A program made the position numbers and the translations under genes. 64,000 bases of DNA, from positions 62,001 through 126,000 of the forward strand of contig JAFGDE010000008.1 in the NCBI GenBank assembly GCA_016932255.1. Reading direction: 5' to 3'. Below are positions 14,280-62,318 of the stretch, in pieces. The notes below the pieces were generated by a model. It saw nothing but the letters and a program-made list of their open reading frames with translations. It ran no database searches and was not told the origin of the DNA. How positions within the stretch are numbered: the first letter of the stretch is position 1; each line of letters begins with the position of its first letter. Source of the DNA: Candidatus Saganbacteria bacterium (GTDB taxonomy: Bacteria; Margulisbacteria; WOR-1; O2-12-FULL-45-9).

Positions 14280-17081
14280 ATGGAATATAAGAAAACCCTG
14301 AATTTACCAAAAACTGATTTTCCCATCCGGGCCAAACTCAAGGAAGTGGAGCAGCACTTTAGCGAGCATTGGGATAATGAGGATATATACCATAAAATAC
14401 AGCATAAAAACGATAAAAATGACAAGTATATCCTGCATGACGGCCCACCGTACCCTAATGGGGATATCCACCTGGGCCATGCCCTGAACAAGATCCTCAA
14501 GGATATAGTCGTTAAATATAAGTCCATGGCCGGTTTCAGCTCGCCTTATGTGCCGGGCTGGGACTGCCACGGTTTGCCGATCGAGACCCAGCTAATCAAG
14601 GAGATCAGTGACAGGCGCAAGGATATGAGCGTGACGGAATTCCGCCAGAAGTGCAAAGAGTACGCGCTCAAATACGTCGATCTGCAGCGGACTGAGTTCA
14701 AACGGCTCGGCGTGCTGGCCGAGTGGGCCAAACCTTATTTGACCATCGACCATGAGTACGAAGCTGACATCATCAGGCTGTTCGGCGTGCTGGCGGAAAA
14801 GGGCTATGTCTACCGGGGTCTCAAGCCGATCCACTGGTGCCCGGACTGCCAGACGGCGCTGGCAGAAGCGGAGATCGAATATGAGGACGATCGCTCTCCC
14901 TCGATCTTAGTCAAGTTCCAGGTCAAAGACCCTGCTGCGATCAAGATCGATAAGCGCTCGCCCATGGCCAAGTACGTTGGCCCGGTCTCTTTTGTTATCT
15001 GGACGACCACGCCCTGGACCCTGCCGGCCAACGTGGCCGTTGCCGCGCATCCGGACTATGAGTATATCTTTCTTAAGGTTTCGAGGGACGAAGGACGATG
15101 GGCGAGGGATGAGGTTTTTATTATCGCCGAGGGATTGTTAGAAGATTTTGTGAAACGCCTGGAGATCAAGGAACATAAAATAATCGACAAGATGCCTGGT
15201 AAATATCTTGAGGGTATCCTGGCCCAGCATCCGTTCGTCGACCGGGAAGTCATGCTGGTGCTGGATAAGTACGTGACCCTGGAGCAGGGCACCGGCCTGG
15301 TCCATATCGCTCCTGGTCATGGTGAAGAGGACTACAAGGTCGGCCTGAACTACAAACTGCCAATCGTCATGCCGGTCAAGGCGGACGGCCGCTTTGATGA
15401 CAGCGTGCCTGAGTTCATCCGCGGCAAGCATTATGATGAGACCAACAAGCTGATCACCCAGCGGATGAAAGATGACGGCACACTGCTCAAGCTGGAATTC
15501 TTCAAGCACCCATACCCGCATTGCTGGCGCTGTAAAAAACCGGTAATTTTCCGGGCCACGGAGCAGTGGTTCGTTTCAGTCGACCACAAGGACATGCGCG
15601 GCCAGGCCTTAAAAGCCATTGGCAGGACCAAGTGGTTCCCGGCCTGGGGCGAGAACCGCATCCGCGGCATGGTCGAGACCAGGCCGGACTGGTGCATCTC
15701 GCGCCAGCGTTCCTGGGGCGTGCCGATACCTGCCTTTTACTGTTCGAAGTGCGGCAAACCGCAAATGATTGGCAAGTTCAATGAAGCGATCCGCCAGCTG
15801 GTGCTGGAAAGAGGCACTAACGGCTGGTTCGAGCTGGAAGCCAAAGAGATCCTGCCGGCTGGGACCAAGTGCCCTGATTGCGGCGGCACTGAATTCACTA
15901 AAGAAAAGGACATCCTTGACGTCTGGTTCGAGTCCGGTTCTTCTCACGCTCTGCTGGAGCGTACCCCGGGCCTGCGCTGGCCGGCAGACCTTTATCTGGA
16001 AGGCTCGGACCAGCATCGCGGCTGGTTCCAGAGCTCGCTTTTGATCGCGGTCGGCTACAAGGACCGGGCGCCTTATGACGCGGTACTGACCCACGGCTTT
16101 ACCATCGATGAAAAAGGCAAGAAAATGAGCAAATCCCTGGGCAATGTTATCAGTCCCCAGGATGTGGTCAAGGAATATGGGGCTGATATCCTGCGGCTCT
16201 GGGTCGCTTCGACTGATTTTCGCAATGATATGGCTGCCTCGCAGAACATTTTAAAACAAGTGCGCGAGGCATATTCTAAAATACGCAATACCTGCCGTTT
16301 TTTGATGAGTAATCTGAATGATTATCAGACCGAAGACCGAAGACCAAAGACCGAAGACCTTTTGGAAATTGACAAGTGGATACTGCTTCGTTTGCAGCGG
16401 TTGATCGAGCGGGTGAGGCAGGCTTACGATGAGTTCGAGTTCCATATCGTTTATCATAAACTTTATGATTTTTGCGTTAATGACCTCTCGGCCTATTACC
16501 TGGACATGTCCAAGGACAGATTGTACTGCGGCGGGAAAGATTCCATCGAGCGCCGCTCAGCCCAGTTCGCCATGAGCCGGATACTTGACGCTTTGGTCAG
16601 GCTGATGGCGCCGGTCTTAAGCTTTACTGCCGAAGACATCCTCAGGTATATGTCTGAAGCGGTCAAGGGGCAGGAGGTCCAAAGCGTATTCTTGCTTGAT
16701 ATGCCAGAGGTCGACAAAAAATATCTCGATGCCAAGCTGGAGGCGCGCTGGGAAAAGCTATTGCAGCTAAAAGAGCAGGTTTACCAGCAGATTGAGGCCC
16801 TGCGCGCCCAAAAAGAGATCTCAGCCTCGCTCGAAGCGACCGTTGAGCTGGGCACCAAGGACCGGGACTGGCTCAAAGGCACGGAGAACATCCTGGCGAT
16901 GGTATTGATAGTTTCTTCTGTTAAGCTGACGGATAACGATCAGATCGTAGTTAAACGGTCTTCAGGCAAGAAGTGCACGCGCTGCTGGATGCTGCTGCCC
17001 AGCGTCGGTCAGGACAAAGAGCATCCGGAACTGTGCGAGCGATGTGCCGCAGTGGTCAAGGGCCTGTCAGGTCCTCAATAA
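14280..17081 (+). CDS. ileS: Isoleucyl-tRNA synthetase
   Basis: LHDGPPYPNGDIHLGHALNKILKD, GWDCHGLPIE, KMSKS, C-terminal CxxC zinc motifs. Confidence 0.97.
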   Translation: MEYKKTLNLPKTDFPIRAKLKEVEQHFSEHWDNEDIYHKIQHKNDKNDKYILHDGPPYPNGDIHLGHALNKILKDIVVKYKSMAGFSSPYVPGWDCHGLPIETQLIKEISDRRKDMSVTEFRQKCKEYALKYVDLQRTEFKRLGVLAEWAKPYLTIDHEYEADIIRLFGVLAEKGYVYRGLKPIHWCPDCQTALAEAEIEYEDDRSPSILVKFQVKDPAAIKIDKRSPMAKYVGPVSFVIWTTTPWTLPANVAVAAHPDYEYIFLKVSRDEGRWARDEVFIIAEGLLEDFVKRLEIKEHKIIDKMPGKYLEGILAQHPFVDREVMLVLDKYVTLEQGTGLVHIAPGHGEEDYKVGLNYKLPIVMPVKADGRFDDSVPEFIRGKHYDETNKLITQRMKDDGTLLKLEFFKHPYPHCWRCKKPVIFRATEQWFVSVDHKDMRGQALKAIGRTKWFPAWGENRIRGMVETRPDWCISRQRSWGVPIPAFYCSKCGKPQMIGKFNEAIRQLVLERGTNGWFELEAKEILPAGTKCPDCGGTEFTKEKDILDVWFESGSSHALLERTPGLRWPADLYLEGSDQHRGWFQSSLLIAVGYKDRAPYDAVLTHGFTIDEKGKKMSKSLGNVISPQDVVKEYGADILRLWVASTDFRNDMAASQNILKQVREAYSKIRNTCRFLMSNLNDYQTEDRRPKTEDLLEIDKWILLRLQRLIERVRQAYDEFEFHIVYHKLYDFCVNDLSAYYLDMSKDRLYCGGKDSIERRSAQFAMSRILDALVRLMAPVLSFTAEDILRYMSEAVKGQEVQSVFLLDMPEVDKKYLDAKLEARWEKLLQLKEQVYQQIEALRAQKEISASLEATVELGTKDRDWLKGTENILAMVLIVSSVKLTDNDQIVVKRSSGKKCTRCWMLLPSVGQDKEHPELCERCAAVVKGLSGPQ
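15083..15113 (+). repeat. Heptamer array GAGGGAC-type inside ileS
   Basis: GAGGGAC GAAGGAC GATGGGC GAGGGAT GAGG. Confidence 0.8.
16328..16359 (+). repeat. Heptamer array GACCGAA-type inside ileS
   Basis: GACCGAA GACCGAA GACCAAA GACCGAA GACC. Confidence 0.9.
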
Positions 17082-23322: not shown

Positions 23323-24064
23323 GCTCGGCCCTTTCCCGGTCCATGCCTACGGCTTCATGATCGCCATCGCTTTTCTGGTCGGCATCGTCATTTCCATGTA
23401 CTTTGCCAGAAGGGAAGGGGTCGGCCCGGAGAATATCCTTGATCTGGCTCTTTATGTCATCCTGTCAGCGATCATCGGCGCCCGGGCCCTTTACGTTATC
23501 GGCACCTGGGACCAGTACCAGGGCAATATCTGGGAGATGTTCGCCGTGCAGAAAGGCGGGCTGATATTTTTGGGCGGCCTGCTCCTGGCCGTGCTGACCG
23601 TCATGCTTTACGCCAGGGTCAAAAGGATCCCGATCCTGCGGCTGCTTGATATCCTGACCCCGGGCACGGCCCTCGGCTACGCCATAACCAGGATAGGCTG
23701 TTTTCTTAACGGCTGCTGTTTCGGCCTGCCGACCGATCTGCCCTGGGGCCTGGAATTCCCTTTTGGCTCACTGGCTTATTCCTATTTCCCCCACCAGCAT
23801 ATTCACCCGACCCAGCTGTATTCTTCAGCCAGCATGTTCCTGGCCTTCCTGGCCCTCATCTGGCTTTATCATAAAAAGCAAAAGGACGGGTTCATCTTTT
23901 ACTGGGGGCTGATCTTTTACTCGGTCTACAGGATGGCCGTTGAGTTCCTGCGCTTTTCACCGATCCACTGGCTGGGCCTGACGCCGTCACAGTGGCTGGT
24001 GATCTTTCTTGCGGGTGGAGCGGTTTGGGGATTGATTAGGGGAAATAAACGGATCGATGCTTAA
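23303..24064 (+). CDS. lgt: Phosphatidylglycerol--prolipoprotein diacylglyceryl transferase (start taken at internal ATG 23303)
   Basis: GPFPVHAYGFMIAIAFLVG; RIGCFLNGCCFG; HPTQLYSS. Confidence 0.94.
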   Translation: MCPILFKLGPFPVHAYGFMIAIAFLVGIVISMYFARREGVGPENILDLALYVILSAIIGARALYVIGTWDQYQGNIWEMFAVQKGGLIFLGGLLLAVLTVMLYARVKRIPILRLLDILTPGTALGYAITRIGCFLNGCCFGLPTDLPWGLEFPFGSLAYSYFPHQHIHPTQLYSSASMFLAFLALIWLYHKKQKDGFIFYWGLIFYSVYRMAVEFLRFSPIHWLGLTPSQWLVIFLAGGAVWGLIRGNKRIDA

Positions 24065-24180
24065 GAATATCAGAATACCAGATTATCAGAGCGTGATTAT
24101 CAGAATATCAGATGATCAGATTTTTCTGATATTCTGATTCTCTGACATTCTCGTTCTGGTATTCTGATTTTCTGATAATC
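24065..24180. repeat. Inverted pair of period-8 arrays (NNNYCAGA) with RCGNGA spacers
   Basis: AATATCAGA ATACCAGA TTATCAGA GCGTGA TTATCAGA ATATCAGA TGATCAGA / reverse-complement arm. Confidence 0.85.
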
Positions 24181-27100
24181 TCCCTTTAGCCTGGTGCAGG
24201 AACGCCTCAAGCCGCGTTTCTAGATTGACCCCTTCGTTGCCGTCGATCGCCAGGTCCAGCCAGGGGATATCATCATGCCTTTGCCGGACCTGTTTGCCCA
24301 GTGCCGCGACAACTGTGCCAGGCATGCAGGTAAAGGGCATGATATTGATAATGCCGGAAGCGCCTTTCTGGATGAAATCAACGGCCTTGCCGATGCTCAG
24401 GACCGCTTCGCCTTTGTAGGAATAGTGCAGATAAGGGGCGGCGTTCCTTAAGGTTTTCAGCATCGATGGCTCATGCAGGTCGCTGATCAAGCCCTTAAAA
24501 CCTTTGGTCAAACGATGCTCTTCCCACTTCTGGACCAGGTTCTGGACCACAGCGCGGACAAAGTGCTTGGGCAAACCGCGCATGTAGCTCTCATAAATAA
24601 AACCAAGGTTGGTGTAAAAGCCCCATTCTGTTATGGGCGCTACCCGGGCCACGCCGCCCAGTTTTTCAATGCGCCGCACGATCTGGCCGTTGCTGTCCGG
24701 ATTGCAGCGCAGGAATATCTCTCCGACAATGCCGATGACCGGCTTGTGACCGTTGGGCTTGAGCGAGATGGCGGCATAAGCGTCCCGGATATCCTTGATG
24801 ATAGTGAATATCTTGCCGCTGCCTGCTTCGGTCGCGTAACTAATCTGCTCAAGATAAAAATCATGCAGGGCCTGTGTTTCACCGGGATTCTTTTCATGGG
24901 CGCGTTTATTCAGGGTCAGTTTCTGCAGCAGGTCAACGGCCACGATGCCCCGCCAGGCGTTAAGCCTGAAGTTCAGGTCCAGGCCCATCATCGAACGGCT
25001 ATAGCCGTCCCTGGCGTCGGGCGAGATCAAGGGCACGTCGTCATAGCCCAGGCGTTCAAAGATCAGCTTGTGGGCTTTGTGATAATTGCCGAAACGGCAG
25101 GGGCCGGATGCGGTCGGCATGAAGAAAGCCGAGCGTTCCGGCTTGAAACCCGGTTCGGTCATTTTTTTGAGGAAGTCGCCGGCCGTGACGATGAAAGGAT
25201 GGCATTCCTTGCCTGAAGTATGCTGCCGGCCCAGCTCTAGCGTGCGGTCATCTGATGGCGGCAGGACCTCAGCTTCGCCGCCGCTTGACCTGATCGCCGC
25301 GGCCAGGGCCAGGGCATGGTCGGACATCCTGGGTAGATAAAGCACGCGTTTGCCTTTTCCTATTTTCGATTTTTTATTTTCTATTTTCAATTTTCTAGTT
25401 TTCGCGTTCTTCAGGCTGTCCAGGAAGGCTTCCAGCCGGGTGATCACTCCGGTGTCGCTGGAATGCTCGTCAACTTCCAGCTCCAGATAAGGCTTGTTCT
25501 TGATGGTATCCTGCATCAGATGAGAAATAAAGGAGTCCGGGCCGCAGCGGAAATTTGTGATGTGGACGGCAGAAAGGGTCTCATGCTCGTTGATGAAAGC
25601 GGCCGCGGCCAGCAGCTTTTGCCCGTAATTCCAGTACATGTTCGGATGCTCGTCAGCGATCTGCGCCCGGCTGATCGGCAGGTACTCAATAGGAATGGCC
25701 AGCACGCCCAATTCTTTTAACTTTTTGGGGATATCAAGATTAAGGGCCGGGTCAGCGCCGTTATAAGGCCGGCTGATGATCGCCAGGGCAGGCAGGTTCT
25801 CGGCCTTGATCCTGGCCAGGACCTGTTCGCCTTTCTCTTTAAGTTTTCTTTTGACCTTCAGATACTCTTTTTCCGCCTTTTTGGCCGCGTGCAAGGCTTG
25901 CTGTTTGGAACAACCTAAAGACTTTGCCAGGCTGATCAGCTGCTTGTTGAAATGTTTGCCGCCGCGCTGAGGTTCCAGGGCCGGGGAAAGTATCCTGGTC
26001 TTTTTATCGAACACTATACCGGCTTTGGCGAAATAAGGCAGGGCCTGAATAAAAGGACAGTTGAAAGATTCCGTGAAACCGTCATGGGCTTTTTCCATAT
26101 TGATCAAGCTGGGCAGGAAGATATGGTCAACACCTTTTACCATCAGGTCGAGGATATGGCCGTGCGCCAGGGTGATAGGGAAACAGGCTTCGGTCGCCGT
26201 GTTCTCTTTGGCGGCTTCGATTATCTTTGGGTTCGACTGGCTGGATAGGATAACGTCAAACCCCAGCGAGCTGAAAAAAGCGTTCCAGAACGGGAATCGC
26301 TCAAAAAAGAACAGAACGCGCGGTATGCCAATAGTAGGAACCGTGGCGTTCAGCCGCAGGTTCCCTTGCTTGAAGACCAATTCATTGCGTTCCTTGAATA
26401 GATCGATCTCCTGGATTCTGGGTTCTAGGTTCTGGGTTCTGGAATAACGTCGATTCTCCCACTTCTCGCAGCGGCCGCCATAAAAGAGCGGGTCTTCGCC
26501 CTCAAGATTGACCATGTTGATCTCGCAGAGATTCTCACAGCTTTTGCATTCGAAGGTCTTGATCTGATAGCCCAGCTGGCTGACCTGAAAACCCTTGAAA
26601 GCGCTCTTGTCCCAGCTGCGCTCCTTCATGGCGATGAGCGCGATGCCGATGGCGCCGGTCACTTCATGATGCGGCGGCACGGTGATCTCCTTGCCGGTGA
26701 TGTCGCCAAAGGCTTTGACCACCGCCTGGTTAAAGGCCACGCCGCCCTGGAAGAAAATCCTGCTGCCGACCGGCCGGGTCTCGACTACTTTGTTCAGGTA
26801 GTTCTTGACGATCGAACGGGCCAGGCCAGCGGCCAGCTCTGCTTTGGTCGCGCCTTTTTGCAGCTGGTTATTAAGCTCTGATTCAATGAAAACAGTACAG
26901 CGGTCGCCCAGCGGGGCAGGGCTTTCGGCCTGCGCGGCCAGCTCGGCGAATTCTTCTTTAATGTTGATATCGAGTTTTTCCGCCTGCTCTTCGAGGAACG
27001 ACCCGGTGCCCGCGGCGCAGACCTTGTTCATCGTGAAATTTACGACCGTGCCGCTTCTGACTGAAATGTATTTGGAATCCTGGCCGCCGATCTCGAAGAT

Positions 27101-27406
27101 CGTATCAACTCCAGGGTCATGGTCAATGGCTGCGGCAGCCTGGGCGGTGATCTCGTTCTTGATGATATCCGCGCCGACCAGCTCGCCGATCATGTAGCGG
27201 CCTGATCCTGTTGTGCCTACGCCGAGTATCTCAACTTGATCGCCGACTTGCTGAGATAACAGGCTGAGACACTGTTTGACTGCTTCGATCGGCCGGCCGC
27301 CGGTCATTAAATAAAGCTTGGCCAAGACCTGTTTGTCCTCTCTGAGCAGGACCAGGTTGGTACTGATCGAGCCGATATCAATGCCTAAGTAAGCCTTAGT
27401 TCTCAT
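24116..27406 (-). CDS. BcrAD/BadFG-type activase fused to DUF2229/2-hydroxyacyl-CoA dehydratase-like domains
   Basis: GIDIGSISTNLVLL; FEIGGQDSKYI; CAAGTGSFLEEQA; GDRCTVFIESE; later Cys-rich HgdB-like part. Confidence 0.9.
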   Translation of the reverse strand: MRTKAYLGIDIGSISTNLVLLREDKQVLAKLYLMTGGRPIEAVKQCLSLLSQQVGDQVEILGVGTTGSGRYMIGELVGADIIKNEITAQAAAAIDHDPGVDTIFEIGGQDSKYISVRSGTVVNFTMNKVCAAGTGSFLEEQAEKLDINIKEEFAELAAQAESPAPLGDRCTVFIESELNNQLQKGATKAELAAGLARSIVKNYLNKVVETRPVGSRIFFQGGVAFNQAVVKAFGDITGKEITVPPHHEVTGAIGIALIAMKERSWDKSAFKGFQVSQLGYQIKTFECKSCENLCEINMVNLEGEDPLFYGGRCEKWENRRYSRTQNLEPRIQEIDLFKERNELVFKQGNLRLNATVPTIGIPRVLFFFERFPFWNAFFSSLGFDVILSSQSNPKIIEAAKENTATEACFPITLAHGHILDLMVKGVDHIFLPSLINMEKAHDGFTESFNCPFIQALPYFAKAGIVFDKKTRILSPALEPQRGGKHFNKQLISLAKSLGCSKQQALHAAKKAEKEYLKVKRKLKEKGEQVLARIKAENLPALAIISRPYNGADPALNLDIPKKLKELGVLAIPIEYLPISRAQIADEHPNMYWNYGQKLLAAAAFINEHETLSAVHITNFRCGPDSFISHLMQDTIKNKPYLELEVDEHSSDTGVITRLEAFLDSLKNAKTRKLKIENKKSKIGKGKRVLYLPRMSDHALALAAAIRSSGGEAEVLPPSDDRTLELGRQHTSGKECHPFIVTAGDFLKKMTEPGFKPERSAFFMPTASGPCRFGNYHKAHKLIFERLGYDDVPLISPDARDGYSRSMMGLDLNFRLNAWRGIVAVDLLQKLTLNKRAHEKNPGETQALHDFYLEQISYATEAGSGKIFTIIKDIRDAYAAISLKPNGHKPVIGIVGEIFLRCNPDSNGQIVRRIEKLGGVARVAPITEWGFYTNLGFIYESYMRGLPKHFVRAVVQNLVQKWEEHRLTKGFKGLISDLHEPSMLKTLRNAAPYLHYSYKGEAVLSIGKAVDFIQKGASGIINIMPFTCMPGTVVAALGKQVRQRHDDIPWLDLAIDGNEGVNLETRLEAFLHQAKGRLSENQNTRTRMSENQNIRKI
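25361..25404 (+). repeat. Heptamer array TATTTTC-type inside activase gene
   Basis: TATTTTC GATTTTT TATTTTC TATTTTC AATTTTC TAGTTTTC. Confidence 0.75.
26411..26442 (+). repeat. Heptamer array GGTTCTR-type inside activase gene
   Basis: GGATTCT GGGTTCT AGGTTCT GGGTTCT GG. Confidence 0.85.
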
Positions 27407-38661: not shown

Positions 38662-38733
38662 GCAGAAGGGCCCTTGCCTTTTTTAAAGAGAACAAGGATA
38701 CTTTAAGAAGGGGACGGGGCCCTTTCTGTTTCT

Positions 38734-38815
38734 AGAGAATCGAAAATCGACAATCGTAAATAGATAATCGGAGCATTCCTATTCTCGATTCTCGATTATC
38801 GACTATCGACTCTCA
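38734..38815. repeat. Inverted pair of heptamer arrays (AATCGAN)
   Basis: AATCGAA AATCGAC AATCGTA AATAGAT AATCGG / reverse arm TATTCTCGATTCTCGATTATCGACTATCGACTCTC. Confidence 0.85.
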
Positions 38816-39995
38816 TTCCTACACACTCGCCAGCTTCTGCCTGATTGACCTTGACCCTGATCAGTTGTCCAATATCCGAACTTTTCCCTTTATACCTGAC
38901 CTTAATAAAGTTGTCCGTCAACCCGACATTCTTCTGTTCAACTAGGATAGCTAACTCCTGGCCCAGGAACTTAGAAGCGAACTTTTGTCTTAACTGGCGA
39001 TCAAGGGCCAGTAGTTCGTTCTTTCTTGCCTTGATCGTCTTCGGATCAACTTGTCCCTTCATTGCAGCTGCTGGAGTGCCCGGCCTTTTTGAGTAGGGGA
39101 AAACGTGCAAGCGGCTAAGACCAGCCTCTTTTATGATCTTAAAAGTATTGCGAAAAGCGGTCTCTGTTTCGCCAGGCAGACCGGCGATCACATCCGTTGA
39201 GATGCCGCAGTCCGGAACGAGCCGTCTGATCAGCCCGATTAAAAGCAAATATTCCTCTGCGGTGTAGCGGCGCTTCATCCGCCGCAGCAGGCCGTTGTCG
39301 CCGGTTTGCAGCGGCACGTGAAAATAATGGCAGGCTTTGGGCTCGCGAGCCACGGTCTTGATCAGCTTTTCCGTCAGGTACATTGGTTCGATCGAGGAGA
39401 GGCGCAATCTTATTAGTTTCTTGAGGGACGTGAGGCGAGGGACGAGGGACCCCAGATCGTGTTGGTAAGCGCCCAGATTGATCCCTGTCAGGACGATCTC
39501 CCTGGCCCCGGCGTCAAGTAGAACTTTGGCTTCATTGATCACCTGTTCCTGCGGCCTGCTTTTGACCGGGCCGCGGGCGTAAGGCACGATGCAGTAGGCG
39601 CAGAAATTGTTGCAGCCGTCCTCGATCATTAGATTTTCTCTGATCTTAGGTTCTGGATTCTGGGTGCTAGGTTCTAGGGAGGGAGAGGGGATGGGTTTGA
39701 TTCTGGGAGAAAGTTCAGCCAATTCATTCGGGCAGAGGCGGGCATAACAACCCGTAACGATTATCTCGGCTTTTGGATTCCGGCGCAGGGCCGTTCTGAT
39801 CATCTGTCTGGACCGTCTGTCCGCGTCGCTTGTTACCGTGCAGGTGTTGATGACGTATACGTCTGCTTTGTCAGAGAAAGTCGTTAGTTGTAAGTTGTTA
39901 GTCGTAAGTTGCGCTATTAGCTGAGAGGTTTGGTATTGGTTGGCCCGACAGCCGACAGTATAATAAGCGATCTTGCGTTTACTGTTCGAGCTCAT
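38796..39995 (-). CDS. mtaB: MiaB-like radical SAM tRNA methylthiotransferase
   Basis: YTVGCRANQYQTSQL; INTCTVTSDADRRSRQMIR; EDGCNNFCAYCIVPYARG; TDVIAGLPGET. Confidence 0.93.
   Translation of the reverse strand: MSSNSKRKIAYYTVGCRANQYQTSQLIAQLTTNNLQLTTFSDKADVYVINTCTVTSDADRRSRQMIRTALRRNPKAEIIVTGCYARLCPNELAELSPRIKPIPSPSLEPSTQNPEPKIRENLMIEDGCNNFCAYCIVPYARGPVKSRPQEQVINEAKVLLDAGAREIVLTGINLGAYQHDLGSLVPRLTSLKKLIRLRLSSIEPMYLTEKLIKTVAREPKACHYFHVPLQTGDNGLLRRMKRRYTAEEYLLLIGLIRRLVPDCGISTDVIAGLPGETETAFRNTFKIIKEAGLSRLHVFPYSKRPGTPAAAMKGQVDPKTIKARKNELLALDRQLRQKFASKFLGQELAILVEQKNVGLTDNFIKVRYKGKSSDIGQLIRVKVNQAEAGECVGMRVDSR
39423..39453 (+). repeat. Heptamer array GAGGGAC-type inside mtaB
   Basis: GAGGGAC GTGAGGC GAGGGAC GAGGGAC CCC. 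Confidence 0.85.
39648..39682 (+). repeat. Heptamer array GGTTCTR-type inside mtaB
   Basis: AGGTTCT GGATTCT GGGTGCT AGGTTCT AGGGAGG. Confidence 0.85.
39879..39911 (+). repeat. Heptamer array AGTYGTN-type inside mtaB
   Basis: AGTCGTT AGTTGTA AGTTGTT AGTCGTA AGTTG. Confidence 0.85.
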
Positions 39996-40740
39996 AGCTG
40001 ATCATGGACAGGATGGCTAAACCGGCAGTCTCGGTCCTGAGGATGCGCTGTCCCAGGCTGATCGGCGTGAACCCGTTCTTTTTGGCCTGGTCGACTTCAG
40101 CTTGCGAGAAACCGCCTTCCGGGCCGATGATGACCATGATGGAGGGGTTTTTGGGTTCTGGGTTCTGGGTATTGGGTTCTAGGTTCTGGGCCTGCCTGCC
40201 GGTCAGGCAGGTTCTAGGTCCTAGGATTTTTTTAAGAGTAAGTTCCTTCTCTAATTCCCAGGGGATGAGGCAGAGATCAAAGTCTTTTGATATTGTGAGA
40301 ACGCCCTCGAACTTGGTCAGCGGATCGATCTGCGGCACGGTGGCCCGGCCGGACTGCTCGGCTGCCTCTTTGGCGATCTTGTGCCAGCGGTCAAGCTTCT
40401 CCCCCTTAGCCACGGTCCGCTCGGAAAGCACCGGGATGATACGGGCTGCGCCCAGTTCAGTGCATTTCTGGACAATTAAGTCCATCTTCCTGCCTTTGGG
40501 CAGACATTGGGCGATAGTTATTTGGGTTCTAGGTTCTGGGTTCTGGGCCCTGGACCCGGTGATCTCACAAGTAACTTTATCTTTGCTCATCGAAGATATC
40601 TTTGCCTGATAGGCCGTTCCGCTGCCGTCGAGCAGCTTAAGCTCAGCGCCGGGCTTTAAGCGCAGCACATGGATGATCTGATGCGCGTCTGAGCCGGTTA
40701 TTTCCGGTATTTGTTCCTTGCTGACAAAGAACCTATGCAT
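39979..40740 (-). CDS. rsmE: 16S rRNA (uracil1498-N3)-methyltransferase
   Basis: [10 protein letters not shown]...[21 protein letters not shown]-type start; [47 protein letters not shown]. Confidence 0.92.
40152..40225 (+). repeat. Heptamer array GGTTCTR interrupted by palindrome CCTGCCTGCCGGTCAGGCAGG, inside rsmE
   Basis: GGGTTCT GGGTTCT GGGTATT GGGTTCT AGGTTCT GG [palindrome 40191-40211] TTCTAGGTCCTAGG. Confidence 0.85.
40522..40553 (+). repeat. Second heptamer array GGTTCTR inside rsmE
   Basis: GGGTTCT AGGTTCT GGGTTCT GGGCCCT GG. Confidence 0.85.
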
Positions 40741-43744: not shown

Positions 43745-43853
43745 AGATCATCAGAATACCAGAGGATCAGAGCGAGAAGATCAGACGATCAGAGTATCAG
43801 ATATTCTGACCCTCTGGTATTCTCGCTCTGGTTTTCTGATCCTCTGATACTCT
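43745..43853. repeat. Inverted pair of period-8 arrays (NNNYCAGA) between dnaK and grpE
   Basis: ATACCAGA GGATCAGA GCGAGA AGATCAGA CGATCAGA GTATCAGA / reverse arm. Confidence 0.85.
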
Positions 43854-51464: not shown

Positions 51465-52934
51465 ATGAGTCCAAAGGAGGCTCTGCAAATGAAGAAGATA
51501 GTTCTGGCCCTTGTCCCCTTGTTCCTGTTCGCGGCGCTGATAGTTGTTTCCGGTTGCGAAGATTCCAAATTATTCCCTGACCTGACCACCACGACCCTGG
51601 CGACCACCACGACCCTGGCAACCACCACGACATCCACCACGACCACCACCTTGCCTCAGGTAGCCGCGCCGGCCTTTTCCGTGGCTTCCGGCAGCTTTAC
51701 CCAGCCCACGCTGACCGTGACGATCGAAACGGCCACGCCGGGCGCTAACATATATTATTCCCTGGGCGCGGCCAGCGCCAGCTCCCTTAAAGCAGCGGCC
51801 GGCTCCAGCGTGACCCTGACCTTGGACAGATCAAAGACCGTTACTGCTTTCGCGGTCAAGCCCGGTTATGAAGACAGCCAGACCGTGAGCGCGACCTATG
51901 AGCTGTACGGCTGGAGCCAGGTGGTTTCCGGCTCGATCGGCGATGATCCTTGCGTATATGCCCTGGCAGCCGGCAGCCTTTACGTTGGCGGTGAATTCAC
52001 ATCAATGGACGGGACAACTGTTCTTGATATCGCCGGTTTGACTGGCAGTACCTGGTCGTCTTTAGGCGGCGGGGTAGGCTCAGTTGTATATGCCCTGGCA
52101 GTGGACCCGGCCACTGGCGAGCTTTACACTGGCGGAGGTTTTACAACTGCCGGCGGACTTTCAGCTAATAGGATCGCTAAATGGAACGGCGCGACCTGGG
52201 AAGCGCTGGGCAGCGGCATGAATGACGAAGTTTTGGGCATAGCATTCAAAGACCAAACATCAAGTAATATGTATGCTGTTGGGGAATTTGACACTGCGGG
52301 AGGCCTAACTGCCCGCGGCATTGCCATGTGGAATGCTGGCACTTCATCCTGGGAAACTGTTGGCGGTGGAGGAGTGAACATAGGTGCTGACCCTGTTTAT
52401 GCCTGTGTGGTTGATCCGAACACCGGTGATCTGTATATCGGCGGCGGATTTACCAGTGTTGGCGGAGTCGGGGCCAACAATATCGCTAAATGGGACGGCA
52501 CGACCTGGGAAGCGCTGGGCAGCGGCACAAATGACTGGGTCCGAGCCCTGGCCATTGATCCGGCTACTGGCGACCTATATGTTGGCGGTGATTTTACCAC
52601 TGCCGGCGGAGAAACGGTCAACCATGTCGCCAAATGGAACGGCACAACTTGGGGTGGTCCGAATATCGGCATGAATAACAATGTCTATGCTATTGCTCTT
52701 GACAGCGCCAACAGCGTGCTTTATGTGGGAGGCAGCTTTACCAGCGCTGACGGTGTACCGGCCGATCGTATCGCGAGCTTTAACGGAACGACCTGGGAAG
52801 CATTGGATGCCGGGATCGATGGCCGGGTCGAAGCTTTATGCCTTGACTCTGCCGGCGACCTTTATGTCGGCGGCTACTTTTTAAGGGCTGGTCCATTATC
52901 AGCCTGCTGCCTGGCTAAATGGGGCAAAAAGTAA
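51465..52934 (+). CDS. Lipoprotein: Thr-rich linker, chitobiase C-terminal-like domain, repeat beta-propeller
   Basis: VSGCEDSKLFPD lipobox; TTTTLATTTTLATTTTSTTTTTL; repeats LYVGGDFTTAGGETVNHVAKWNGTTW. ATG at 51489 (MKKIVLAL) is the likelier start. Confidence 0.8.
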   Translation: MSPKEALQMKKIVLALVPLFLFAALIVVSGCEDSKLFPDLTTTTLATTTTLATTTTSTTTTTLPQVAAPAFSVASGSFTQPTLTVTIETATPGANIYYSLGAASASSLKAAAGSSVTLTLDRSKTVTAFAVKPGYEDSQTVSATYELYGWSQVVSGSIGDDPCVYALAAGSLYVGGEFTSMDGTTVLDIAGLTGSTWSSLGGGVGSVVYALAVDPATGELYTGGGFTTAGGLSANRIAKWNGATWEALGSGMNDEVLGIAFKDQTSSNMYAVGEFDTAGGLTARGIAMWNAGTSSWETVGGGGVNIGADPVYACVVDPNTGDLYIGGGFTSVGGVGANNIAKWDGTTWEALGSGTNDWVRALAIDPATGDLYVGGDFTTAGGETVNHVAKWNGTTWGGPNIGMNNNVYAIALDSANSVLYVGGSFTSADGVPADRIASFNGTTWEALDAGIDGRVEALCLDSAGDLYVGGYFLRAGPLSACCLAKWGKK

Positions 52935-54400
52935 TTAAGGAAGCAAAGGAGGATATAAAAATGAAAAACTATCTCGCGCTTAGCCTGGTCATTCTATTGT
53001 TCGCCGGAGCGTTCTTGATCTCCGGTTGTGAAGACTCAAAGCTTTTCCCTGACCTGACCACGACTACTGCGACTACGCTTAGTACCAGCACTACCAGCAC
53101 CAGCAGCACTACCAGCACCACCCTGGCCCAGGTGGCGGCCCCGACCTTCTCGATCGCTTCAGGCAGTTATGAGGCCGGGACCCTGACCGTGACCATTGAG
53201 TGCGCGACGCCTGGGGCCAGTATCTATTATGTCCAGAGCGGCGCCGGCGCGGCGGCTGCCGGGCTTAAAGCAGCGGCCAGCGGGCCGGTGACCCTGGCCC
53301 TTGATGCCTCAGCCACGATCGAGGCATTTGCGGCCAAAGCTGGCTGTCTTGACAGTGCCACGGCCTCAGCCTGGTATGATGTCTACGGCTGGCAGCAGTA
53401 TGGCGCTGATTTTTTTGATGCCAGCTCGTCGTATACGGAAATTAACGCGATATGCAGCGGCAGTATGTATGTGGGCGGTGCTTTTGATACGGTTGGCGGC
53501 GCCACCTTTAATAACATAGCAAAATGGAGCGGTTCAAGCTGGGAAGCCTTAGGCAGCGGCATGAACGGCGGTGTCCTGGCCCTGGCCAACGACGGCTCCG
53601 GCAACCTGTATGCTGGCGGTAGTTTTACCACAGCCGGCGGGGTAACTGTGAACAGGATCGCGAAATGGGATGGCAGTAACTGGTCGGGAGTGGGTGGTTC
53701 AGCGGATAATACTGTTAGAGCCCTGAAGTTTGATGGTTCCGGCAATCTGTATGCCGGAGGAAGCTTTTCTGCGCTTGGCGGAGCCTCTAACAATATCGGG
53801 CAATGGGACGGCAGTACCTGGTCAGCGCTCAGCACCGGGATGAACGGCGCTGTCCTGGCCCTGGCAAACGACACTTCAGGTAATTTATATGCCGGTGGTT
53901 ACTTTACCACAGCCGGCGGGGTAACTGTGAACAGGATCGCGAAATGGGATGGCAGTACCTGGGAGGCTCTGGCTGCCGGGGTGAGCGACTCGGTCTATGC
54001 TTTGGTTTGTGACGGTTCCGGCAACCTGTATGCCGGCGGCAGATTTAACATAGCCAGCGGTGTAACTGTGAACGCTGTCGCGAAATGGGATGGCAGTACC
54101 TGGGAAGCTCTGGGTAGCGGCATGGACTACGATGTTTATTCCCTGACTCTTGACAATGCGGGCAACCTGTATGCCGGCGGTGACTTTACCACAGCTGGTG
54201 GTGTAGTTGTGAACAGGATCGCGAAATGGGATGGCGCGAATTGGTCAGCTGTGGGTGATGGATTAGACGGTATTGTGGCTGAGGGTAACTCAGTAAAAGA
54301 TATTCTAATAGACGCGCAGGGTAATATTTTCGCGGTCGGCAGTTTTGCCGGCAGCGGCAGCACAGCTATCAGGGGAGTGGCTAAGTTCGGCAAGAAATAG
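52919..54400 (+). CDS. Lipoprotein paralog of 51465-52934
   Basis: LISGCEDSKLFPDLTTTTATTLSTSTTSTSSTTSTTL; repeats LYAGGSFTTAGGVTVNRIAKWDGSTWEAL. ATG at 52961 (MKNYLAL) is the likelier start. Confidence 0.8.
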   Translation: MGQKVIKEAKEDIKMKNYLALSLVILLFAGAFLISGCEDSKLFPDLTTTTATTLSTSTTSTSSTTSTTLAQVAAPTFSIASGSYEAGTLTVTIECATPGASIYYVQSGAGAAAAGLKAAASGPVTLALDASATIEAFAAKAGCLDSATASAWYDVYGWQQYGADFFDASSSYTEINAICSGSMYVGGAFDTVGGATFNNIAKWSGSSWEALGSGMNGGVLALANDGSGNLYAGGSFTTAGGVTVNRIAKWDGSNWSGVGGSADNTVRALKFDGSGNLYAGGSFSALGGASNNIGQWDGSTWSALSTGMNGAVLALANDTSGNLYAGGYFTTAGGVTVNRIAKWDGSTWEALAAGVSDSVYALVCDGSGNLYAGGRFNIASGVTVNAVAKWDGSTWEALGSGMDYDVYSLTLDNAGNLYAGGDFTTAGGVVVNRIAKWDGANWSAVGDGLDGIVAEGNSVKDILIDAQGNIFAVGSFAGSGSTAIRGVAKFGKK

Positions 54401-62225: not shown

Positions 62226-62318
62226 AAAGACCGAAGACCGAAGACCGAAGACCAAAGACCTTTCTAGGGAATGAGGGACGAGGGATGAGGGACGACGGAC
62301 GAGGGATGACGGAAGACC
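62226..62318 (+). repeat. Two adjacent heptamer arrays (GACCGAA-type then GGAYGAG-type)
   Basis: AAAGACCGAAGACCGAAGACCGAAGACCAAAGACC; GAATGAG GGACGAG GGATGAG GGACGAC GGACGAG GGATGAC GGAAGAC. Confidence 0.9.

Follow-up and report, generated by a model that had tools for sequence, protein, structure and literature searches.

Rickettsia palindromic elements (RPE) are palindromes of about 100-150 bp that are found in frame inside conserved protein genes. Among the long simple sequence repeats (LSSRs) of prokaryotes, 7 nt is the commonest unit in the range of 5-11 nt; such repeats are scattered over lineages, and slippage by 7 nt has been proposed for them (Mrazek et al. 2007, cited in PMC4679880). 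Genome-wide direct repeats of heptamers have been described as TAACTGA in the Beggiatoaceae (PMC4679880) and as GGGNATC in Xanthomonas and Nostoc (PMC4692102), and the P6b stem of the trnL intron of Nostoc and Calothrix carries heptamers of Class I (TDNGATT) and Class II (NNTGAGT), with repeated word shifts and indels of 7 or 14 nt (PMC4476775). The bacterial preference for a 7-nt repeat unit has long lacked an explanation, and it has mostly been investigated in intergenic sequence, whose homology is hard to trace.

Here we analyse a window of 64,000 nucleotides (G000:C18:62001-126000, G000 being the label of the window's own genome) from an uncultured relative of cyanobacteria (Cyanobacteriota/Melainabacteria group), whose closest named relative, judged by MtaB, is a Candidatus Saganbacteria MAG. 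Its short tandem arrays belong with the heptanucleotide LSSRs, having a 7-nt unit that is repeated head to tail beyond chance and that dominates among units of 5-11 nt. A literature search on Saganbacteria repeats found nothing relevant.

Heptamer arrays within mtaB

38796..39995, minus strand: mtaB, tRNA t6A37 methylthiotransferase, 399 aa, intact (TIGR01579 equivalog, 379.6 bits, cut-off 357)
39423..39450, minus strand: array 1 (site 1), plus-strand word GAGGGAC, encodes GSLVPRLTSLK (TRF score 35, 71% matches)
39647..39678, minus strand: array 2 (site 2), plus-strand word GGTTCTR (coding AACCYAG), encodes SLEPSTQNPEPK in a linker (TRF, TAGGTTC, score 36, 76%)
39878..39911, minus strand: array 3 (site 3), plus-strand word AGTYGTN, encodes QLTTNNLQLTTFS (TRF, AAGTTGT, score 40, 74%)
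38781..38818, minus strand: fourth array, supplies the last codons and the stop of mtaB and one arm of a hairpin
38733..38770, plus strand: inverted partner array, in the gap between mtaB and a porin-like gene, which converge at their 3' ends (RNA fold)

An earlier note had placed three arrays in mtaB at 39423-39453, 39648-39682 and 39879-39911, and TRF recovers all of them within 1-4 bp, each being weak when taken singly. The note had also held that they encode low-complexity peptides just before the CNNFCAYC motif, which is correct for array 2, with its SPSLEPSTQNPEPKIRE, whereas arrays 1 and 3 encode GSLVPRLTSLK and QLTTNNLQLTTFS, respectively. Array 3 fits better as a 14-bp unit (90% matches, TRF score 54); read directly from the sequence, it alternates CTTAC and CTAAC units, and this alternation keeps TAA out of frame. 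The fourth array had been missed. It pairs with the inverted partner array as a hairpin, and the fold of 38726-38822 has an energy of -36.6 kcal/mol (z -4.83), equalled by none of 200 shuffles. Two further inverted array pairs in the window, at 24064-24182 and 43753-43853, have a period near 8 and are hairpin-like as is 38733-38818; the former supplies the C-terminus SENQNTRTRMSENQNIRKI of the gene at 24116-27406.

The cluster-binding cysteines of the protein are intact: Cys16, Cys52 and Cys83 and the radical-SAM cysteines C128, C132 and C135 are invariant in 19 orthologs. According to an alignment with orthologs of the family and class and to an AlphaFold2 model (mean pLDDT 88), site 1 is a helix end with the following loop, inside the radical-SAM domain. 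Site 2 is the linker ahead of that domain, modelled as coil between strands, and residues 106-117 are coil with pLDDT of about 70-76. Site 3 is a helix-strand turn of the N-terminal domain, modelled as helix end, turn and strand.

Period 7 in the window and the genome

Period 7 is the sole strongly enriched short period, both in the window and in a genome sample of 415 kb of stretches from G000. In this sample, 38 period-7 TRF matches score at least 34, as compared to 1.7 expected from order-2 Markov shuffles, and 24 score at least 40, as compared to 0 in the shuffles. A stricter lag-7 test finds 9 strong arrays in the window against 0.0 expected from shuffles. With the lag test, period 7 gives 26 cases and the other periods among 5-11 give 0-6; no period from 4 to 11 other than 7 is enriched likewise. 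The arrays of G000 fall mainly inside ORFs.

The words are either class-wide or private to a genus. AATGACA is found in 27 of 31 genomes of the class, in none of 26 from the rest of the phylum and in none of 21 others of the domain. The AACCYAG arrays, on the other hand, have 27 matches in G000 (as GGTTCTR x3) and none or one in 94 relatives, and ACGACYT has 41 matches in G001 and none in nine others. GAGGGAC (x3) has 17 matches in G000 and few in five others. The unrelated words within one gene, from which the earlier note had argued, are indeed present, but they are normal here since the genome uses about ten word families.

The AATGACA word is also seen in the arms of intergenic hairpins of about 110 bp in G002 (L220-L232), which are present in about ten copies, have a variable GC-rich inner stem and are MITE-like. 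The sequence ATGACAAATGACAAATTAAAAATGACAAATGAAGG seems to stand at the start of genes as well; the left arm is seen at such apparent gene starts as MTNDKLKMTNEG (L227) and, in G000, as MTNDKLKMSNGG at a V-type ATPase subunit A-like gene (L037).

Other array-bearing genes and true insertions

39979..40740, minus strand: rsmE, 16S rRNA m3U1498 methyltransferase, adjoins mtaB, two arrays (NF008692, 210 bits, cut-off 196; TIGR00046)
40523..40553, minus strand: GGTTCTR array, rsmE site 1 (other words in G008 and G009, of equal length and in register)
40151..40190, minus strand: GGTTCTR array, rsmE site 2 (TRF score 73 at period 21)
40191..40211, no strand assigned: palindrome CCTGCCTGCCGGTCAGGCAGG inside the rsmE array, in frame, encodes a 16-letter peptide; LeuRS site 2 has the same composite
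15082..15114, plus strand: GAGGGAC-type array, ileS site 1, an insertion (G005, G007, G001 and G006 have other words)
16327..16359, plus strand: AGACCGA array, ileS site 2 (AGACCAC in G003, length and register the same)
25356..25403, minus strand: TTTTCTA array in the acyl-CoA dehydratase activase-like gene 24116-27406 (TRF)
26411..26442, minus strand: GGTTCTR array in the same gene (TRF)
62227..62260, plus strand: AAGACCG array, intergenic (TRF, lag-7 test)
62266..62317, plus strand: GAGGGAC array, intergenic (TRF, lag-7 test)

Genes with arrays include ileS, leuS, hisS, glyS, polA (PolI), thiC, rimO, hemW and rsmE, the identities of which were checked, and candidates for pyrK, queC and coaX, which are named from sequence only. 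At some of these sites the array is a true insertion. For example, five array-less orthologs are shorter by 8 aa at IleRS site 1, and the array of ThiC adds length. LeuRS site 2 and RsmE site 2 carry insertions of 16-20 aa, in which the array encloses a palindrome, CCTGCCTG..CAGGCAGG, and the site 2 loop of RsmE in G000 exceeds those of orthologs with or without arrays by 11-20 aa. The two rsmE arrays of G000, which surround the palindrome, had been missed as well. Both in rsmE and in leuS the palindrome lies within an AACCYAG array with similar junctions, which suggests a mobile composite. A scan for the CCTGCCTG palindrome in arrays gave seven candidates at up to 2 mismatches in 415 kb, two of them flanked by arrays, numbers too few for statistics. 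As a palindrome CCTGCCTG(N)CCGGCAGGCAGG, it is found in frame in rsmE, leuS and glyS (window 40191-40211; L042:2939; L050:12179).

We also note heptamer arrays at L042:4559-4590, L034:11697-11725, L241 and L245 that encode the hydrophobic core of apparent signal peptides (HLTFVIGYLSLC, LFSIFYCLFST, AIVICHLSFVIA). Repeats of a different kind, with units that are multiples of a codon, occur in the window at 51584-51650 (18 bp), 53083-53122 (9 bp) and 53888-54235 (141-bp unit, 2.5 copies).

Orthologous loops across genera

Ortholog loops were collected from nine other genera of the family and aligned, with a threshold of at least 16 matches out of 21 for an array. Period-7 arrays are present in 38 of the 145 loops, as compared to 2.9% of random control windows from the same loci, and any other period gives 0-6 cases. 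At a given site the words differ among genomes. The HisRS loop has GGGACGA in G000, AATGCCG in G009, AATTAAC in G004, AAATCCG in G007 and AATGACA in G002 and G001; IleRS site 2 has AGACCGA, AGACCAC, GGACGAT, CGAGCCA and ACGACTA; and LeuRS site 1 has AAAGACC/GAAGACC units in G000 and TACGACC units in G001.

Equal length and a shared register are nevertheless seen at LeuRS site 1, IleRS site 2, RsmE site 1, HisRS, rSAM and mtaB site 2. The 26 array pairs of equal length between genera have an identity of 0.57 when compared in the homologous register and of 0.20-0.31 upon a shift by 1-3 bases, and the homologous register is the best in 20 of them, though part of this agreement could stem from constraint on the protein or from codon preference and not from descent. 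Differences between arrays occur at all three codon positions, so the protein segment is little constrained. Identity at third codon positions is 0.54 in arrays and 0.45 in flanks, a small excess, from pairs that are not independent. A test of the phase concentration of these differences was not counted because any two periodic sequences yield its outcome almost automatically. Two arrays of a same-genus pair match at 37/37 and about 26/27 positions, with copy number unchanged, their flanks being 78-82% identical; this greater conservation of arrays could also come from selection or recent transfer.

Other dispersed in-frame repeats occupy the same loops in IleRS and GlyS of G002, G008 and G009 (L103, L110, L159, L163). 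One, SRDVQSQ/LRLNVA, perhaps represents two orientations of a single element, and another, GTGLVPVR..NGQPQGLSL, resembles REP-type palindromes. In G017:C64 (L253), the contig ends exactly at the expected start of the array of a MurE-like ortholog, which is consistent with repeats breaking assemblies.

For mtaB itself, site 1 has the same length in G003, G005 and G023, site 2 in G005 and G003, and site 3 in G001, with G023 shorter by 1 residue. The nearest orthologs thus differ in no consistent way in length, the very outcome that the earlier note had named as refuting its view. A lineage-specific insertion at each mtaB site is rejected on this comparison, and recent insertion or net expansion there is unsupported. 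At site 2, G005 has CCTAGCATCTAGCATCCAGC where G000 has CCTAGAACCTAGCACCCAGAATCCAG, with identical length and register and with related words (CTAGCAT and CTAGAAC, respectively). At site 3, G005 has an AATGTCA-type array interrupted by a palindrome. A convincing ortholog array was not found at sites 1 and 3 (G005 and G002 score just 14-15/21 at site 1), so a shared origin is shown for site 2 only. The repeated acquisition or in situ expansion that had been offered is partly supported: in situ evolution is seen in another form, at site 2 with G005, and acquisition that adds length is seen elsewhere in the genome.

Origin of the arrays

We favour, with a confidence that is moderate since constraint on the protein can produce some of the register signal, the view that these are heptanucleotide repeats of a known type that sit in permissive coding loops and evolve through local slippage or conversion and through the spread of genome-specific words. 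The arrays would form a genome-wide family of heptanucleotide tandem repeats in Ca. Saganbacteria-like bacteria, and those in genes would persist only where the protein tolerates them, viz., in loops, linkers, helix ends, signal peptides and termini. Pairing out of register by one unit, through slippage or conversion between neighbouring units, probably keeps the units alike. The word would then change together in all units of an array, often without net change in length, because an unrepaired gain or loss of 7 bp would shift the frame. Over longer times, words common in a genome may reach new places or displace older words, perhaps by recombination of fragments and through composites with palindromes, and the words of each genus would come to be partly private, at sites that are shared in part. 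New insertions contribute too, given that arrays add length at IleRS site 1, LeuRS site 2, RsmE site 2 and ThiC.

No enzyme for such a spread was found. A reverse transcriptase (PF00078) has no match in G000, G001, G004 and G007, genomes that are 85-95% complete, and a dedicated reverse transcriptase is thus unlikely; Y1 transposase domains were undetected in G001, a genome with many private-word arrays. As the genomes are incomplete, these absences are no proof, and presence/absence searches leave templating by a reverse transcriptase or a RAYT/Y1 transposase, including telomerase-like repeat addition, unsupported.

The alternative that survives best, though we regard it as doubtful, is recurrent independent insertion, wherein each genus has its own dispersing heptamer element that keeps hitting one small set of permissive loops, insertion at most other places being lethal, and wherein protein constraint brings about the similar length and register. 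The true insertions noted above, two of which share the composite of array, CCTGCCTG..CAGGCAGG palindrome and array, are in its favour, as are the MITE-like hairpins of G002 with their AATGACA-array arms and the filling of the same loops by other dispersed elements in some genera (SRDVQSQ/LRLNVA, GTGLVPVR...GQPQGLSL). It is harder to reconcile with the six sites of equal length and shared register, the lack of added length in mtaB and the failure to detect both reverse transcriptase and Y1 transposase in G001.

A bolder form of word spread, in which one heptamer word replaces another throughout the genome and so rewrites the coding DNA of essential genes where it stands, with length and register kept constant, would amount to a trans-acting concerted evolution of words without long shared homology, and appears to us unlikely.

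We give still less credence to selection at the DNA or RNA level for the 7-bp periodicity itself, for hairpin arms, protein-binding sites or G-rich structures, with the coding arrays as copies of such sites. Inverted array pairs do give stable hairpins between convergent genes and in G002, same-genus arrays are conserved above their flanks, and roles have been proposed for published heptamers (PMC4679880, PMC4692102); however, words at one site differ among genera and stand in either orientation relative to the gene, many orthologs are array-less, and single arrays within coding loops lack a partner arm.

That the arrays of mtaB arose by chance, or are simply low-complexity protein sequence of an ordinary kind, is scarcely credible, for although they score just 35-40 at period 7, near the shuffle background at 34 (1.7 per 415 kb), and no clear ortholog array was found for two of them, there are three within 500 bp with words common to other arrays of the genome, their period is not a codon multiple and involves all codon positions, and the shuffle and word-recurrence tests make chance unlikely. 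Phase-variable contingency repeats were rejected, the arrays having 4-5 degenerate units, mtaB and the other genes being intact and the ortholog lengths equal.

Comparison with known repeat systems

Since the loops that hold the arrays, in aminoacyl-tRNA synthetases, DNA polymerase I and tRNA/rRNA modification enzymes, can be aligned over about ten genera, the birth of heptamer arrays, the change of words and the change of length can be followed locus by locus. The arrays are thus well suited to studying the spread and evolution of bacterial repeats within functional genes. Odd peptides in such proteins, such as a 16-letter peptide or MTNDKLKMTNE, are repeat-derived, and the repeats may break assemblies of the genomes that bear them.

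Like the RPE, the arrays are short in-frame repeats in conserved genes, and the CCTGCCTG..CAGGCAGG palindrome of rsmE, leuS and glyS resembles an RPE. The RPE are, however, long palindromes and not heptamer arrays, and the single mtaB arrays do not qualify as RPE, as they are direct repeats; just the embedded CCTGCCTG element of rsmE and leuS is palindromic. The TAACTGA and GGGNATC repeats are similar in being genome-wide direct repeats of 2-6 or more copies, few of which lie in ORFs, at protein edges, but they have one dominant word per genome and are mainly intergenic, whereas many words, mainly genic, are found here. The trnL heptamers of Nostoc and Calothrix, from the cyanobacterial side of the same larger group, likewise show different words at one site among related lineages, though in a single intron stem whose repeats pair; the present arrays occupy many loops of protein-coding genes and need no partner arm. 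Prokaryotic heptanucleotide LSSRs share the 7-nt unit, while the present arrays are short and degenerate (4-5 units), of many words per genome, and lie largely in conserved housekeeping genes at sites shared across genera. Thus, it was already known that long repeats most often have a heptamer unit (PMC4679880) and that words can shift at a single site (PMC4476775); the present arrays add their placement within numerous housekeeping genes, the multitude of words in each genome and a homology of sites that can be traced.
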